From Actinomycetota bacterium (GTDB taxonomy: Bacteria > Actinomycetota > Humimicrobiia > Humimicrobiales > Humimicrobiaceae): a stretch of DNA of 10,380 nucleotides. Position 1 is the first letter of the stretch; the number at the start of each line of letters is the position of its first letter. The position numbers were made by a program, and so were the translations under genes. The notes beneath the pieces are model-generated. The model worked only from the letters and a program-made list of their open reading frames with translations. It made no database searches and had not been told where the DNA came from. This document shows, piece after piece, positions 1,333 to 10,137 of this stretch. The stretch covers positions 1-10,380 of the forward strand of contig JAMCQQ010000016.1 in the NCBI GenBank assembly GCA_023379515.1, read 5' to 3'.

Positions 1333-3924
1333 TTATAAAATGACGGTGTCTCGCTTTTTCCTAAAAACATACGTTCCAATTAGAAGAAAACAAATAAACA
1401 CAGCAAAAGGCACAACATAAACTTTAGTAATACCTAATATTTTTTGAGGCAAGAATTCCACGATTACCTCTAAATCATATGTCCCGTTAGCGTTTTCCTT
1501 AAGAAAGCCTGGAAAATTTTTGTCCAAATATTCTATATCAACCTGCCAATAGTTAGCATAACCATTTGCAATCTGATGGAATTTTTCATCAATAGGTTTA
1601 AGAAACCATGTATCATAAAAATGTCCTCCAGATATATTATCATTTTGGATAACCCCTTTAATTTCTTTTGATAAAAAATCAACGTAATACTTCTCCTCAT
1701 AGTTTTGTTCAGAGTTAAAAGATGTCCATAAGGCTATCTTTCTTTTCTTTTCTGCGTCATCACCTAACTCTGAAACCCAACCTTTCTTAAGGTAAGACTT
1801 CAGTTCCTCTTTTGTAGCCTGGTAAGTATCGTTTTGATCAAAAATCCTATATCCTTCAATATTGCTACTCTCAGCTTCAGTATAATACATAGGGTAAACT
1901 TTCCAAGAAGAATTAAAAGATTCAGAGAAAACAAAAGGGAAAGATTTACTTATACCGTGAAATTTTATTTTATATTTTGCAGGATTAATTTTCTTATATT
2001 CGATAACAATTTTATCGTCGCCTAACATCAGGCCAGCCAAATTCTCATTGTCAGATTCCAAAATAACAGGTTTTTCAAATTTAGGCACGTTTTCAAAAAC
2101 CAAAGGAATACGGCTGGGTTCTTTAATAATATATTTCCCATCCGGGATATAGAAATGTGGAAGGAAAAACTTATTTGATATCTCAAAAAAGTCAAAATAT
2201 TGATTAGAAGTTAAAGGACTAATAAATCCTTTTTCCTTATAAAAATTTATTTTTGAGGTTGCTTTATTTACAAACATTTCTGGAACATCTTTTTGAAAAA
2301 TCAGATATTTTGCATTAAGCATGCCAGATAGGGACATCAACCAAAGAGATTCGCTATCCACCTGCTCATTCCATTCTTCCCCATAATTCCAACCTCTAAA
2401 TGAATTTGGATCATTCATCTGAACAAAAGGACGATTGAAATATTGTATAATTGGATTGGCTCCTTTATTCTTCCATTCCGGCGATATAATCCAGCCCTTA
2501 AGATCCGGATTTTCCAATGACCACGGGACGCTAAAAACCCTGAAATCATTCTTTATCTGATTTGTTTTGCTTATTATATCAAAATATTCCTGGGGGATCT
2601 TAACTAAAGAAGCATAATTACTTGTAAGATAATTTTTACCATTCTCCACAGCATAATGTTTTTTATACAGATCACCATGAATAAAGGGGTAACTAAAAAT
2701 TAAAGTAAAAACCAATAAAATCAACGGAATGAATTTGTACTTTATGCCTGACCTATATAAACAAAACGGCATTAACAGCATAAATGGCAGAAAAATAAGT
2801 ATTTTATCAAAACTGCGTAAAGAAGATAAAATAATATTATTTATAAACATAGACTGCACTGGTGCTTCCCAGGGGAATCCTCGTCCTTTATTTAAAAGAA
2901 AAATAGTAACTAATACCATAAAACCAAATATAATGCTTGTCTTCTTATATCTATTATTCTTAAAAACCAAAAAGCTTCCAAGCAGTAATGCAAATAAAGA
3001 AAAGGTTAACGCAAAGAAAAAAAGAAGATTAATCTGATTAATATTAACCAGACCAAAAAGTCTATTGCGGAATGAAAAAACATCCAACATCGTTAATGAT
3101 TGTGAATAAATCCAATCATGCATATTCACTTGATATTTACCCTGATTGATCCCGGGGATAATTTCAAGTAATATTGCAGGCCATGTAAATAAATACATTG
3201 CATAGCTGCTTATAAATATAAAACAATAAAGAGCACATTTCTTAACCAAAACGAAAAAACTATACTTCCTGTAAAAAATAGAAAGCAACATAATATAAGC
3301 AGAAATTAATATAACGAGTGCTAAAAAATAAGGCGGATTCACAAAGCTAACAGTACTTATAAGCATAAATATTGCGCACCAAAGCAAATTTCTATTAAAT
3401 ACCTTGGATTCCATAAAATAAGCATGAGTCGTAGCAAATAAAACTGGTATAAAGATGTATAGAACAAAATAAATGGATGGCAACTCGAACCTTATAGCTG
3501 TATATGAATTTATTGCGTATAGCAAAGATAAACAGAGTATTATATGCCTGTCTTTTTCCCTGTCAAGACCATAAAATATGGTAGCTATATAAAAAGAATA
3601 AAAACTGCTAACAAGGAAAATAAAAGAATAAACTATAGACATATATTGAACTCCTGCAAAGTTCTGAATGAATCCTAACACTGAATAGTAAAAAGGGACA
3701 TATAAAAAATTTACACTTCCTGCTCCAATATCTATAAAAGCATTACTAAACCATTTCAAGGTATCTTTAAAATTTACAAGCTGAAAGAAATCGCTGTAAG
3801 AGTAAATATAATCTTTCGGAAATTTATTTAACAGCGATATTACAAAAAGCAGAATTAAACATAAAGATAGCCCAAACTTATTAATGAAAAATATGATTTG
3901 CGCAGTAAAAGGTTTCTTATTCAT
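1333..3924 (-). CDS. Large polytopic membrane protein, GT-C / YfhO-like, with extracytoplasmic domain
   Basis: 863 residues. The N-terminal half (about 12-412) holds roughly eleven or twelve hydrophobic segments, for example near 12-33, 92-118, 126-169, 178-217, 226-255, 297-344 and 371-412. A mostly hydrophilic domain of about 415 residues follows, then one last membrane segment (about 832-854) and a basic tail RKKR. This layout is that of GT-C fold, polyprenyl-phosphate-sugar-dependent glycosyltransferases and YfhO-type proteins. An Asp (D45, in YSYSD) in the first outer loop is where GT-C enzymes often carry a catalytic acid. LNAKYLI (536-542) resembles a segment common in YfhO-like proteins. 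ESFNSSWKVY (668-677) and NGYANYWQVD (787-796) look like related motifs in the outer domain. Role inferred: adding or transferring a glycan unit on the outer face of the membrane. The start lies 9 bp after the acyltransferase stop with no clear Shine-Dalgarno, suggesting translational coupling. Exact family not certain. Confidence 0.8.
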   Translation of the reverse strand: MNKKPFTAQIIFFINKFGLSLCLILLFVISLLNKFPKDYIYSYSDFFQLVNFKDTLKWFSNAFIDIGAGSVNFLYVPFYYSVLGFIQNFAGVQYMSIVYSFIFLVSSFYSFYIATIFYGLDREKDRHIILCLSLLYAINSYTAIRFELPSIYFVLYIFIPVLFATTHAYFMESKVFNRNLLWCAIFMLISTVSFVNPPYFLALVILISAYIMLLSIFYRKYSFFVLVKKCALYCFIFISSYAMYLFTWPAILLEIIPGINQGKYQVNMHDWIYSQSLTMLDVFSFRNRLFGLVNINQINLLFFFALTFSLFALLLGSFLVFKNNRYKKTSIIFGFMVLVTIFLLNKGRGFPWEAPVQSMFINNIILSSLRSFDKILIFLPFMLLMPFCLYRSGIKYKFIPLILLVFTLIFSYPFIHGDLYKKHYAVENGKNYLTSNYASLVKIPQEYFDIISKTNQIKNDFRVFSVPWSLENPDLKGWIISPEWKNKGANPIIQYFNRPFVQMNDPNSFRGWNYGEEWNEQVDSESLWLMSLSGMLNAKYLIFQKDVPEMFVNKATSKINFYKEKGFISPLTSNQYFDFFEISNKFFLPHFYIPDGKYIIKEPSRIPLVFENVPKFEKPVILESDNENLAGLMLGDDKIVIEYKKINPAKYKIKFHGISKSFPFVFSESFNSSWKVYPMYYTEAESSNIEGYRIFDQNDTYQATKEELKSYLKKGWVSELGDDAEKKRKIALWTSFNSEQNYEEKYYVDFLSKEIKGVIQNDNISGGHFYDTWFLKPIDEKFHQIANGYANYWQVDIEYLDKNFPGFLKENANGTYDLEVIVEFLPQKILGITKVYVVPFAVFICFLLIGTYVFRKKRDTVIL

Positions 3925-5208: not shown

Positions 5209-6372
5209 TTATAAGCATCTGACCAATGTATTGCTAAAAATATTCTCCCAACGTACCGTTGAAGCAAATTCAATCGCATTTCTCCTGCATTCAAAATAAA
5301 ATTCATTATCCAACAAAAGTTTGAGCACTCCTTTTACGAAGCTTTCTTTATTATAATTTACTATCAATCCGAGCTTTTTTGATTTTATCTCATCAGATAT
5401 TGCCGGAACAGAAGTAATTATTACAGGCAAGCCGCTTGCCATATACTGCTTTGGCTTGCTTGGATCTGAATACCAGGTAATGCTATATGGATCCGGCTCA
5501 TACAATGCAAGCCCTACAGCGCATTCACTTAAAATACTCTCTACATCCCTATGATCCGGGATGTACCCCTTAAACTCAACATATTCACCAAGGCACTTCT
5601 TGGCTACTATATCCTTAAGATGTTCCTCTAAATCACCTCCTCCGACAATCAAAAGCTTTACTTTTGGAACTTTATGAATTATATCTTTGAGACTGTTAAT
5701 AACTAGCTCCAGCCCCTGATGTTTTTTGACATGCCCCATATATACAAGGCAATAACGATTTATTTTATCATCATCCCTTCTTTGTATCCTGTCGAAATTT
5801 ACTCCTATAGGAACAACAATCTGATTAATAGTTTTTAATATACCCTTCTTCTTACGCTCTTCAGCCATCCTGGCTGAGAGGTTCCACACAAAATCAGAAT
5901 TCCTTACACAAAAAGAATCTAATCTATGATAAACCCAATTTAAAGCCTTATTGTTAAATCTTTTTGGTACATAATCTATTGTATACAATACTGTTTTTTT
6001 AACCTTGCCTCTTCTCTTCAATATAAATCCTGCAAATCCATTAAGAGGGTCTGCGCCTACATATAAATCAAGATTGCCTTTTCTGAAAAACAGCCATAAT
6101 AGTGTATAAAAGACATCTTTACAATATAGAATCACTTCGGGAGCCCTATAATTAAATGAATAATGAGCCTTGCTTAAAACACCATCCTTATATATCTTAT
6201 AAAAAGACCTGGTATCGTGGGAATATCTGAAAGGATGTCCGATAAACACTAACTCTTTCACCCTTCCTTTAAGATAATCCTCAAGCTCTTGAGCAGGTCC
6301 GGTTGTATAAACATGCGTTACTATTGCTGCTTTTATATTCTTTAGATTAGATTCAAAATCATTCATTCTCAT
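5209..6372 (-). CDS. Glycosyltransferase, GT4-like (GT-B fold)
   Basis: 387 residues, the usual GT-B length. The N-terminal half contains LDLYVGADPLNGFAGFILKR (101-120) and a VLYTIDYVPKRF segment (128-139). The C-terminal half has the Glycos_transf_1 pattern: VYMGHVKKHQGLELVI (210-225), LLIVGGGDLEEHL (240-252), VEFKGYIPDHRDV (265-277) and KQYMASGLPVI (308-318). The usual E-x7-E signature is not present: the second Glu aligns with Gln309 and the first falls on a Tyr. It probably adds a hexose from a nucleotide sugar to a lipid-linked or growing glycan at the inner membrane face. The start at 6372 overlaps the radical SAM gene by 14 bp (ATG inside its last codons), which implies translational coupling. 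It is paralogous to the partial gene at the left edge. Donor and acceptor unknown. Confidence 0.9.
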   Translation of the reverse strand: MRMNDFESNLKNIKAAIVTHVYTTGPAQELEDYLKGRVKELVFIGHPFRYSHDTRSFYKIYKDGVLSKAHYSFNYRAPEVILYCKDVFYTLLWLFFRKGNLDLYVGADPLNGFAGFILKRRGKVKKTVLYTIDYVPKRFNNKALNWVYHRLDSFCVRNSDFVWNLSARMAEERKKKGILKTINQIVVPIGVNFDRIQRRDDDKINRYCLVYMGHVKKHQGLELVINSLKDIIHKVPKVKLLIVGGGDLEEHLKDIVAKKCLGEYVEFKGYIPDHRDVESILSECAVGLALYEPDPYSITWYSDPSKPKQYMASGLPVIITSVPAISDEIKSKKLGLIVNYNKESFVKGVLKLLLDNEFYFECRRNAIEFASTVRWENIFSNTLVRCL

Positions 6373-7765
6373 GCTTTACCCAATGCTTAAAAAAGCTCGT
6401 CTTCATAAGAGTTTTTATACTGCCAGGGGACATATTGCGCAAAACACTAAATATGCGATTGGGGCGTGCTAAATAAAACTCTTTTAGGGCCCTGCGCTGC
6501 CAATAAACCATATCTTCTGCGTTTAAGTCTTCGTATTTTATCCCCTTTGTAATCATACCTGTAGTTGCATCAACCCCTGTCCAGTCAATTTCATCATAAG
6601 ACTTGCCCTGAGCGTATAAATCAAAAATCTCTGTTCCGGGATATGGCACAAGCACATTAAACCATGCTCTGTCTAAAGGAAGCTTCTTTGCAAACTCAAT
6701 CGTCTGGCGAATAGTCTTCTTTGTTTCACCCAAAAGGCCTATAATAAAAAAGCCGTAAGTAAGAATTTTGTGCTTCTTTGCCAATCTCACTTTCTCTTCA
6801 ACTTGAGATAAATCCAGTTGCTTTTTGGCACGATTAAGAATCTCCTGGCTGCCTGACTCTATCCCAAGGCCTACAAGATAACATCCTGCCTCACGCATAA
6901 GTCCAAACAGTTCATCATCAACCTTATCAACCCGGATGCCATTAGGGCATGCCCACGGTATCTTAATCTTTCTGAATAATATTTCTTTACACATAGCCAT
7001 GGCATGGCTTTTCTTTAGTGTAAAATTATCATCTGAAAGAAAAATCTGCTTTACACCGAATTTATCCCTCAATAGCTCAATCTCGTCCACAATATTAGCT
7101 GCACTGCGCATACGAAAAGACCTTTTCCACATAAGAGACCCTCCACAGTAGTTGCATTTATAAGGGCATCCTCTTGTTGTAACAATGGGTGCGATGGGCT
7201 TTTCTTTTATAGGCGTTAAAACAGGCTGCAAATTATATTTTAACGGAGCAATATAATCCCAAGCCGGAAAAGGCAGAACATTGAGATCCTTTATAAAATC
7301 TCTTGGTTTATTAATAATAGCTTTATTATCTTGTTTATATACAAGCCCTTGGACAGAATCATAGTCTTTTCTACCAGCTGATAAAAAATCCGCTAACTCC
7401 ACTATAGTTAATTCTCCCTCGCCAAACACTGCAAAATCAGCACCAGTATAGTTAACAGTAAATTCAGGAGCAATGGTAGGCTGTGGCCCTCCTATTACAA
7501 CCGGATAATCCCCTGCTTCTTTTATATTTTGAATAAGCGCCTGAACATAAGGCAAAGCCCTAACCATTAAAGATATCCCAATTAAATCAGGCTTATAAGC
7601 AGTTAACTGTGCCTTAAAATCAACCATTGAAATCGGCTGCAAGGTATAATCGGCTAATGCCACTTCGTGCTCTGCCTGCTCTAAAAATGAAGCAATATAT
7701 CCTAATCCAAGAGGTGGAGCTGCCCAAGTATCCTTATATTCAGGTTGAATAAGTAAAATTTTCAT
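6359..7765 (-). CDS. Radical SAM protein with N-terminal B12-binding-type domain
   Basis: 468 residues. Residues 1-130 are a B12-binding-type Rossmann domain (start MKILLIQP, then PPLGLGYIASFLEQ, VVIGGPQPT and GEGE). The radical SAM core follows, with its [4Fe-4S] cysteines in RGCPYKCNYCGG (C200, C204, C207), then FLSDDNF (242-248) and a GIESGSQEIL segment (301-310). A helical tail of about 70 residues closes it. This is the BchE/HpnJ/Elp3-like layout (B12-binding plus radical SAM) of enzymes doing C-methylation or other radical chemistry, often in secondary metabolism or lipid and sugar modification. The usual DxHxxG cobalamin motif is not seen, as is common in this class. It is the first gene of the minus-strand block. 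Its start codon and leader lie inside a repeat shared with the plus-strand block. The substrate is unknown; modification of a sugar or lipid in this glycan is an inference. Confidence 0.93.
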   Translation of the reverse strand: MKILLIQPEYKDTWAAPPLGLGYIASFLEQAEHEVALADYTLQPISMVDFKAQLTAYKPDLIGISLMVRALPYVQALIQNIKEAGDYPVVIGGPQPTIAPEFTVNYTGADFAVFGEGELTIVELADFLSAGRKDYDSVQGLVYKQDNKAIINKPRDFIKDLNVLPFPAWDYIAPLKYNLQPVLTPIKEKPIAPIVTTRGCPYKCNYCGGSLMWKRSFRMRSAANIVDEIELLRDKFGVKQIFLSDDNFTLKKSHAMAMCKEILFRKIKIPWACPNGIRVDKVDDELFGLMREAGCYLVGLGIESGSQEILNRAKKQLDLSQVEEKVRLAKKHKILTYGFFIIGLLGETKKTIRQTIEFAKKLPLDRAWFNVLVPYPGTEIFDLYAQGKSYDEIDWTGVDATTGMITKGIKYEDLNAEDMVYWQRRALKEFYLARPNRIFSVLRNMSPGSIKTLMKTSFFKHWVKHENE

Positions 7766-8165: not shown

Positions 8166-8876
8166 ATGAATATTGTAATTATTGCTGGTGGTAAGGGAGT
8201 AAGGTTGGGATCTCTGACGCTGGATATTCCCAAACCGATGGTTTTGCTAGAAGGAAAGCCTGTTTTAGAACATCAAATCGAACTGGCAAAGCGGTACAGT
8301 CTAAAAGAAATAATAATATTATCGGGATATATGTCAGATAAGATAGAAGAATACTTTTCTGATGGGAACTTGTTGGGAGTAAGTATTAAGTATATTAAAG
8401 AGCAGTTTCCTTTAGGTACAGCAGGTTGTTTGAAACAGATTGAAGAATTCGTCTCAGATGATTTTATTATTTTTAATGCTGACATTGTTATGGATTTTGA
8501 TATTTTAAGAATGATCGATTTTCACTATATGAAAAATTCGGCTGCTACACTTTTTTTACATCCTAACGACCACCCTTATGATAGTGATTTGATAGAAATC
8601 AATGAGAACGGTTATGTTTTATCAATTTATCCAAAGCCACATTCTGATGATAGATGGTATCAAAATCTTGTTATGGCAGGCGTTTATATTTTTAAAAAGA
8701 GGATATTACAGCATATAAAGAAGGAGGAAAAAGCCGATTTAGGAAAAGATTTAATCCCCACACTTTTAAAATCGGGTGAGATGATTTCGGGTTATATCTC
8801 TTCTGAATATGTTAAAGATATGGGAACTCTCGAAAGGTATGAAAAAGTAAAAAAAGATTTCTTAAGGGCTACATAA
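8166..8876 (+). CDS. hddC: Sugar-1-phosphate nucleotidyltransferase (HddC-like heptose-1-P guanylyltransferase)
   Basis: 236 residues of NTP_transferase fold. The N-terminus reads IIAGGKGVRLGSLTLDIPKP: the nucleotide-binding loop with G8, G9, G11, R13 and the phosphate-contacting K23. Then come PLGTAG (82-87), NADIVMDFD (104-112, Asp106 as probable metal ligand; Ala where the family mostly has Gly), HPNDHPYDSDL (132-142), HPKPH-like KPH and NLVMAGVYIF (167-176), and KDMGT (217-221). It should transfer a nucleotide to a sugar 1-phosphate. With the phosphatase and GmhA next to it, D-glycero-D-manno-heptose 1-phosphate is the likely substrate. In the family I recall, this domain is fused to a HAD-IIIA phosphatase through a linker after KDMGTPER. 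Here a TAA (8874-8876) falls at that linker, and the phosphatase continues in the same frame. The Shine-Dalgarno is weak (AAGAG). First gene of the plus-strand block. Guanylyl rather than other nucleotide specificity is an inference. Confidence 0.85.
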   Translation: MNIVIIAGGKGVRLGSLTLDIPKPMVLLEGKPVLEHQIELAKRYSLKEIIILSGYMSDKIEEYFSDGNLLGVSIKYIKEQFPLGTAGCLKQIEEFVSDDFIIFNADIVMDFDILRMIDFHYMKNSAATLFLHPNDHPYDSDLIEINENGYVLSIYPKPHSDDRWYQNLVMAGVYIFKKRILQHIKKEEKADLGKDLIPTLLKSGEMISGYISSEYVKDMGTLERYEKVKKDFLRAT

Positions 8877-8892
8877 AACTATGATAATTTTA
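8858..8892. repeat. Inverted repeat copy 2, over the hddC end and the phosphatase start region
   Basis: 27 bases (8858-8884) identical to the minus strand of 7762-7788, then one mismatch at 8885 and seven more matching bases. This copy encodes the last codons of the nucleotidyltransferase (FLRAT), its TAA stop, and an ATG at 8881 that is out of frame with the phosphatase. The two copies bracket 1,069 bp. Confidence 0.95.
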
Positions 8893-9452
8893 AATACAAA
8901 CGGCCGGCAATATTTATTGATCGCGATGGCGTTATAAACAGAGACATAACTCTTTTGTGCAATGCTAATGATTTTGAATTGCTTCCAGGTGCAGCAAGTG
9001 CTATAAAAAAGATAAATGATTCGGGATATCTTGCGGTTGTCGTTACTAACCAGCCGGTAATTGCACGCAATCTGATTGATTTTAACGGTTTGAGGCAGAT
9101 CCATAATAAAATGGAGTGGTTGTTAGGCAAACAAGGCTGTTATCTTAATGCAACTTATTTCTGCCCTCACCACCCAGATAGCGGTTATCCTGAAGAAAGA
9201 AAGGAATTCAAGTTAGACTGTGATTGCCGAAAACCAAAACCAGGGATGATTCTTCGTGCAGCAGGAGAGTTAAATATAGATTTGGAAAAATCTTTCATTA
9301 TCGGTGATAGAGAGTCAGATGTCATAGCTGGCAAAAATGCAGGAATAACAACAGTTCTTGTTAAAATAAATGGAGAATATTGGGAAAATCAGGATTCTTG
9401 TGCAGACATGAGGTTTAATGCACTCGAAGAAGTGATTAATGCTATATTATAA
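8877..9452 (+). CDS. gmhB: HAD-IIIA phosphatase (GmhB-like heptose 1,7-bisphosphate phosphatase), no proper start codon
   Basis: The frame is open from directly after the hddC TAA to the TAA at 9450-9452, in the same frame as hddC. Within it are all HAD-IIIA motifs: AIFIDRDGVIN with the nucleophile and acid Asp codons at 8919 and 8925, VVVTNQPVIAR (motif II), the zinc-loop pattern FCPHHPDSGY ... CDCRKPKPGM with the motif III Lys, and IIGDRESDV (motif IV). The enzyme removes the C7 phosphate of D-glycero-D-manno-heptose 1,7-bisphosphate. No in-frame ATG, GTG or TTG precedes the DRD motif; the first is a TTG at 8955, which would make a protein without the catalytic Asp pair. Options: (a) ATG at 8881 with a -1 shift at the TTTAAAT heptamer (8889-8895); (b) readthrough of the TAA, giving a 428-residue fusion; (c) a non-standard start; (d) a sequence error or a real lesion. 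Function call firm, expression route open. Confidence 0.8.
   Translation, partial: NYDNFKYKRPAIFIDRDGVINRDITLLCNANDFELLPGAASAIKKINDSGYLAVVVTNQPVIARNLIDFNGLRQIHNKMEWLLGKQGCYLNATYFCPHHPDSGYPEERKEFKLDCDCRKPKPGMILRAAGELNIDLEKSFIIGDRESDVIAGKNAGITTVLVKINGEYWENQDSCADMRFNALEEVINAIL
8889..8895 (+). other. Possible -1 ribosomal slippery heptamer (U UUA AAU)
   Basis: TTTAAAT lies in the X XXY YYZ phase relative to the ATG at 8881 (codons ATG ATA ATT TTA AAT). A -1 slip here would be followed by TAC at 8895 in the phosphatase frame, producing MIILN then YKRPAIFIDRDG. I see no clear stimulatory stem-loop downstream, and slipping at codon 5 would be unusual. Such heptamers are easily met by chance in AT-rich DNA. 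Confidence 0.25.
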
Positions 9453-9495: not shown

Positions 9496-10137
9496 ATGAA
9501 GAAATATTTATCAAACTTGATCCAAAAATATCCTGAGATAGAAGAGTGTGCCGCTGATATCAACCTTGCTATAGAACTGATGAGAAGTTCAATAAACAGC
9601 AAAGGCAAGGTGTTAACTTGTGGTAATGGGGGCAGTGCTTCCGACGCAGAACATATTGTCGGAGAGCTAATGAAAGGATTTATGCACCCGCGAAATTTAG
9701 AAAGCAAAGAAATTGAATCTATTATGCAGCTTTATCACGAAACCGGGAGTGAAATTGTAAAAAATCTGCAAAAGCCGATTCCTGCAATTTCACTTACCAG
9801 CAATATGTCTTTTATTACAGCATATTCAAATGATGTTAATCCTGAATATATTTTTGCCCAACAAGTGTATGGGTTAGGTAATAAAGGCGACGTTTTATTA
9901 TGCCTGTCTACATCCGGGAATTCAAAAAATGTAATTAATGCAGCTATGGTAGCAAAGGTTAAAGGAGTAAATATTATTGGGTTTACCGGTAAAAATGGTG
10001 GGATATTAAAAGAGTATGCAGATGTACCTATCAAAGCTCCTTCTTTAATTACTCCAGAAATACAAGAATATCATATTGCAATATACCATACAATATGTGC
10101 ACAGATTGAAGAAGACATTTTTCATAAAAATAATTAA
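9496..10137 (+). CDS. gmhA: Phosphoheptose isomerase (sedoheptulose 7-phosphate isomerase)
   Basis: 213 residues of SIS fold. TCGNGGSASDAEHIVGEL (41-58) holds the phosphate-binding GNGGSASD and the catalytic Glu57. LSTSGNSKNV (137-146), FTGKNGG (163-169) and PEIQEYH (187-193, Gln190 and catalytic-position His193) complete the active site. The enzyme converts sedoheptulose 7-phosphate to D-glycero-D-manno-heptose 7-phosphate in the cytosol, the first step of heptose supply. Relative to the E. coli type (about 192 residues) there is an insertion of roughly 25-28 residues after GELMKGF (about 63-92), a known long variant. It lies 43 bp after the phosphatase, third gene of the plus-strand block. 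No Shine-Dalgarno is visible before the ATG; the 43-bp gap is almost wholly A and T. Very sure of the family. Confidence 0.95.
   Translation: MKKYLSNLIQKYPEIEECAADINLAIELMRSSINSKGKVLTCGNGGSASDAEHIVGELMKGFMHPRNLESKEIESIMQLYHETGSEIVKNLQKPIPAISLTSNMSFITAYSNDVNPEYIFAQQVYGLGNKGDVLLCLSTSGNSKNVINAAMVAKVKGVNIIGFTGKNGGILKEYADVPIKAPSLITPEIQEYHIAIYHTICAQIEEDIFHKNN

Follow-up and report, generated by a model that had tools for sequence, protein, structure and literature searches.

A Fused Sugar Nucleotidyltransferase-HAD Phosphatase Gene Interrupted by an In-Frame TAA within a Garbled Linker

Organization of the Locus

The window, that is, the whole 10,380 bp stretch of DNA analysed here, has a G+C content of 32.8%. 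It appears to be an entire contig, since the database entry for its phosphatase ORF (P0242) gives 10,380 bases as the longest contig. On its plus strand, positions 8166-9452 form a single frame that runs from ATG 8166 through 236 codons to a TAA at 8874-8876 and then through 191 codons to a second TAA at 9450-9452. An earlier note on this DNA had placed a nucleotidyltransferase and a HAD phosphatase in one frame interrupted by the TAA at 8874-8876, and the translation and the ORF coordinates bear this out. Its count of 428 codons including the stop at 9452 was one short: there are 429 codons with both stops, and 428 residues when the internal TAA is counted as one and the final stop is left out. 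The features of this region are as follows.

8166..8873, plus strand: nucleotidyltransferase domain (PF00483, 130.8 bits), 236 codons, a relative of mannose-1-P guanylyltransferase and HddC-like sugar-1-phosphate nucleotidyltransferases
8864..8881, plus strand: garbled part of the linker, R-A-T-stop-N-Y in frame against S-G-K-I-K-K or similar in close relatives, and KGYIKL one base earlier (alignment and frame comparison)
8874..8876, plus strand: in-frame TAA, codon 237 (translation)
8877..9452, plus strand: GmhB-type HAD phosphatase domain, 191 codons and stop (Pfam and NCBI models, aligned motifs)
8955..9452, plus strand: HAD ORF from the first usual start (TTG), 165 aa, lacking DRDG, present in the protein database as P0242 (ORF table, protein search)
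9496..10137, plus strand: next gene, gmhA-like sedoheptulose-7-phosphate isomerase with a SIS domain (TIGR00441, 159.1 bits, below the cut-off of 209.45)

TAA terminates four other genes of the window, at 524, 1333, and 5209 (minus strand) and at 10137 (plus strand), as the earlier note had held in treating TAA as a genuine stop elsewhere in the window; three others use TGA. A change of genetic code was ruled out, since TAA ends these four genes and the 8166-9452 frame itself at 9452. On the minus strand, 1333-3924 is an 863-residue ORF with the look of a membrane protein by eye and no Pfam match at E 0.001. Between 7700 and 10380, a search for promoters and terminators found no terminator and 18 promoter-like sites, where 14.1 would be expected.

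Domain Assignment and Proposed Pathway

The first domain matched the nucleotidyltransferase family NTP_transferase well above the Pfam cut-off of 21.2 bits, and the second matched the HAD-IIIA phosphatase model TIGR01662 at 105.9 bits against a cut-off of 44.6. In an alignment with five relatives, the HAD half retained the DRDG, TNQ, CPHHP, CDC, and GDR motifs, whose usual roles we presume to apply. The more specific models stayed below their curated cut-offs: the window reached 94.2 of 300 bits with the HddC equivalog NF049965, and the 191 codons after the TAA reached 144.1 of 149.6 bits and 164.5 of 178 bits with the GmhB models TIGR00213 and NF006506, respectively.

In the available text of PMC10680097, C. 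jejuni GmhB takes off the 7-phosphate, and HddC then couples heptose 1-phosphate with GTP. As in C. jejuni, the two activities assigned to the fused gene are successive pathway steps, and a gmhA-like gene adjoins it in the window; unlike the window, C. jejuni has separate genes according to that text, and the domains of the window lie under the NCBI HddC and GmhB cut-offs. From the domain matches we infer that the fused enzyme may carry out the two final steps in making nucleotide-activated heptose, namely phosphate removal followed by nucleotide transfer. Fusing consecutive steps of a pathway is sensible.

Fused Relatives

A protein search with the TAA entered as X yielded the best 120 relatives (P0001-P0120), all of 406-631 aa. 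The five closest among these listed matches (P0001-P0005) were 83-87% identical to the window, consisted of single 428-residue chains, and aligned with it without gaps. The spacing from DMGT to DRDG was 38 residues in 119/120 listed relatives (P0084 did not match the pattern). The window has the same spacing of 38 when its TAA is taken as one residue, so the linker length is unchanged, as had been claimed earlier. Both the NTP_transferase and the HAD families were matched in all 57 relatives scanned out of the 120. Most of the listed relatives are unnamed; source names of the others include "D,D-heptose 1,7-bisphosphate phosphatase", "histidinol-phosphate phosphatase family protein", and "HAD-IIIA family hydrolase". 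The window's own 236-residue product was absent among the best 120 listed, and other shortened copies may be missed likewise. Thus, the window shares with P0001-P0120 the two domains in the same order, the motifs, and a bridge of 38 residues, whereas the relatives are uninterrupted and the bridge of the window is garbled and holds a TAA.

A scan of genome contigs added six more distant loci (L001-L006), the best of them 55% identical. In L001-L004 (50-55% identical over the first domain), a HAD motif followed the nucleotidyltransferase tail in the same frame, and in the whole-genome search L001-L003 had an open frame free of inner stops. For L005 and L006 (34 and 38% identical), neither motif was seen and the match was confined to the first domain. 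Because the five closest listed proteins are single 428-residue chains and 119/120 listed relatives share the 38-residue spacing, we take the fused state to be ancestral.

In a PDB search with P0001, the second domain matched GmhB-type chains and the first domain matched nucleotidyltransferases, and 0 of the 55 listed sequences matched across both domains. The D,D-heptose 1,7-bisphosphate phosphatase 2gmw, which we take to be E. coli GmhB, and further entries are related in sequence to the second domain (residues 240-426 of P0001), but the matched 2gmw chain has 211 residues and one domain. Five of the 57 scanned relatives (P0050, P0068, P0080, P0093, and P0100; 622-631 aa) also matched the P-loop kinase family PF00485; therefore, three-domain versions exist. 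The fused gene was also present on 27-kb plasmids annotated as Lawsonia intracellularis (three records, H1-H3), with 44% identity across the full length of P0001. All 838 plasmid and 102 phage matches lay below 60% identity to P0001, and two scans of viral contigs gave no relative. Among 98 genomes from the phylum of genome G002, only G002 itself matched at E 1e-100. A literature search found no paper on the fused enzyme, which does not prove absence, and the word "fused" did not occur in the available text of PMC10680097.

Separate phosphatases were sought with the phosphatase half alone, taking the best 120 matches. The best was P0241 (86% identical), named in its source as a "partial" heptose bisphosphate phosphatase of "Candidatus Humimi..."; apart from the window's own ORF, no further HAD-length protein among the listed matches reached 86% identity. 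P0241 was taken for a fragment of a fused gene because it starts inside an intact linker without a Met. The second match was the window's own ORF, and the other 118 listed were 53-64% identical. By sequence pattern, 76 of the 120 carried a nucleotidyltransferase tail, 14 had a Met start with DRDG within 25 residues (stand-alone or mis-started), 4 were fragments without a Met, 3, including P0242, had no DRDG-type motif, and 23 were of other kinds. The 14 proteins with a stand-alone look occurred only among the matches at 53-64% identity. Close relatives with two separate genes, set beforehand as one refuting case, were not found among the 120 listed matches.

By the name of P0241, the affinity of the phosphatase half (8877-9452) would lie with Candidatus Humimicrobiia (Actinomycetota) or with one of its subordinate taxa. 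For the radical SAM protein encoded at 6359-7765, the closest listed relative was P0121 (92%), and the closest named relative, 73% identical, belongs to Candidatus Omnitrophica (649-kb contig). These differing affinities may perhaps reflect gene transfer or a mis-binned contig.

Sequence of the Linker

The difference from the relatives extends beyond the TAA codon. In codons 234-242, the window was identical to each of the five closest relatives at 1/9 positions and differed at the other eight, while pairwise agreement between the five relatives was 83%. On either side of this block, and leaving out codon 233, identity to the same relatives was 81.5-86.2% over codons 1-232 and 83.9-91.9% over codons 243-428. 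G235 is present in 55/57 and K236 in 52/57 sequences; in the window both are lost in frame, with A-T replacing G-K just before the TAA at codon 237. Reading one base earlier regains G235 and not K236, which becomes Y: codons 234-238 then read KGYIK against SGKIK of the closest relative, and the conserved G-x-I-K pattern is recovered.

The block scored 11.0 in the shifted frame and -10.6 in frame, -8 of the latter being the charge for the stop. With a profile built from the five relatives, the score of the shifted block was reached by 46/20724 18-mers of the window (both strands) and by 5/1580 other out-of-frame blocks of the gene at four offsets, or 1/395 at the same offset. With a profile from 57 sequences, the corresponding counts were 42/20730 15-mers of the window, 10/1568 blocks at four offsets, and 5/392 at the same offset. 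Across 18 settings of the stop and shift penalties, a frameshift-aware alignment placed two opposite one-base shifts, near 8866 and 8879, in 15 and none in the other 3. In the control, the radical SAM gene at 6359-7765, no shift appeared in 6/6 settings, with columns taken from an alignment that included the window's own translation. From these comparisons with protein profiles, in which the signal is short, we infer two opposite one-base shifts, with fair but not conclusive support. A template switch as the origin was set aside for want of a donor: no direct or inverted repeat of at least 10 bases overlapping the patch was found in 8600-9200 by a gapless search with seed 7, which a distant or shorter donor would escape.

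An AlphaFold model of P0001 computed with 57 sequences had a mean pLDDT of 95.1 and a pTM of 0.91, with helices at 222-234 and 236-239 around G235. The prediction thus describes the bridge not as a loose string but as an ordered element, constant in length, which would make free drift at eight of nine residues unlikely.

The two halves were also compared for conservation. Among the columns that do not vary between the five relatives, the window departed at 5/157 in the first domain and 4/132 in the second, and the same test applied to each relative gave departures at 2-11 of 154-163 and 0-13 of 128-141, respectively. By this measure, relaxed conservation appears in neither domain. Since neither half is visibly decayed, the defect would be absent from the genome, or very recent, or the half would still be used.

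Expression of the Phosphatase Half

The phosphatase frame has no ATG, GTG, or TTG from the TAA up to DRDG; its earliest such codon, TTG 8955, lies beyond that motif. An ATG at 8881 lies 4 bases after the TAA, out of frame, and opens an ORF of 18 residues. Heptamers of the TTTAAAT type can promote -1 slips, and one at 8889-8895 is in register for a -1 slip from ATG 8881 into the phosphatase frame. TTTAAAT occurs 8 times in this AT-rich window on both strands together, and the register of ATG 8881 and TTTAAAT is probably due to chance. The RNA of 8830-8930 showed no notable fold (z +2.65; 200/200 shuffles folded at least as well, with pseudoknots outside the test), and recoding driven by RNA structure was rejected on this ground. 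All five closest relatives have a residue where the window has the stop, a one-sided comparison, as a protein database cannot represent an interrupted copy as one protein.

Discussion

The earlier note had proposed that an ancestral bifunctional enzyme was split or is read through. The fused ancestor and its interruption in the window are supported, but two working genes or read-through are not: adaptive fission and programmed read-through are unsupported because there is no ATG, GTG, or TTG before DRDG, no notable RNA fold, and a garbled, probably out-of-frame patch. A functional split would require reinitiation, in which ribosomes either use a rare start (such as ATA 8910 or ATT 8916) or begin at ATG 8881 and then slip by -1 at TTTAAAT, entering the phosphatase frame just before YKRPAIFIDRDG. 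The short distance from the TAA to ATG 8881, the register of the heptamer, and the unrelaxed HAD half are in its favour. The frequency of TTTAAAT in the window, the lack of a stimulating structure, the position of the first usual start beyond DRDG, and the absence by eye of an AGGAGG-like sequence within 20 bases upstream of ATA 8910 or ATT 8916 argue against it, and we regard it as quite improbable. Its most specific form has only the slightest probability. This form assumes a genuine patch that has become fixed in the species, a nucleotidyltransferase that terminates with the TAA, and a phosphatase reached by restart at ATG 8881 with a -1 slip at TTTAAAT; if true, it would represent the fission of a fused enzyme through restart coupled to a -1 slip. 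Read-through of the stop would give the full fusion and agrees with the preserved frame and linker length. It is very improbable given that TAA ends four other genes of the window, that the RNA shows no fold, that the closest relatives have a residue at this position, and that the near-invariant G235 and K236 would still be absent. Functional restart and read-through taken together are improbable by our own estimate.

A genuine nonsense mutation accompanied by drift of the linker without indels would make the phosphatase half a young pseudogene, with the nucleotidyltransferase half in use. The 8 changed codons can indeed be read without any indel, and the linker has kept its length; however, eight of nine neighbouring codons are changed although the remainder of the gene is not relaxed, and the shifted frame is the better fit. 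We consider this course unlikely.

The explanation that we judge probable is a gene for a fused enzyme whose linker is locally defective, owing to a consensus or assembly error or a very recent mutation. In this copy of a widespread fused enzyme, the bridge carries a local defect of about 15-20 bases, including the in-frame TAA. The patch would probably be out of frame between two opposite one-base shifts, with the frame correct again in the phosphatase. The cause would be either an error made in the consensus or assembly of this short contig or an inactivating mutation that arose very recently in the strain sampled. From the sequence as written, the nucleotidyltransferase half alone would be made. 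Since the radical SAM gene is free of frameshifts, there is no indication that the contig is error-ridden in general, which speaks somewhat against sequencing error. Two independent errors at so short a distance would be odd, and one complex event would therefore be needed. By our estimate, which was not computed, a contig error has nearly an even chance. A real recent mutation, whether by two shifts or by substitutions only, is not far short of even, its two-shift form being possible though doubtful when considered separately.

Most likely, the window contains a fused enzyme gene of a familiar type in an interrupted copy, and no new mechanism for producing two proteins from one gene. A neat single in-frame stop at a domain linker can be a small garbled patch instead of a site of recoding or gene fission. 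Public data contain many copies of the fused enzyme, and its constant, well-ordered 38-residue bridge, which would join the enzymes of two successive pathway steps, is a reasonable subject for structural study.
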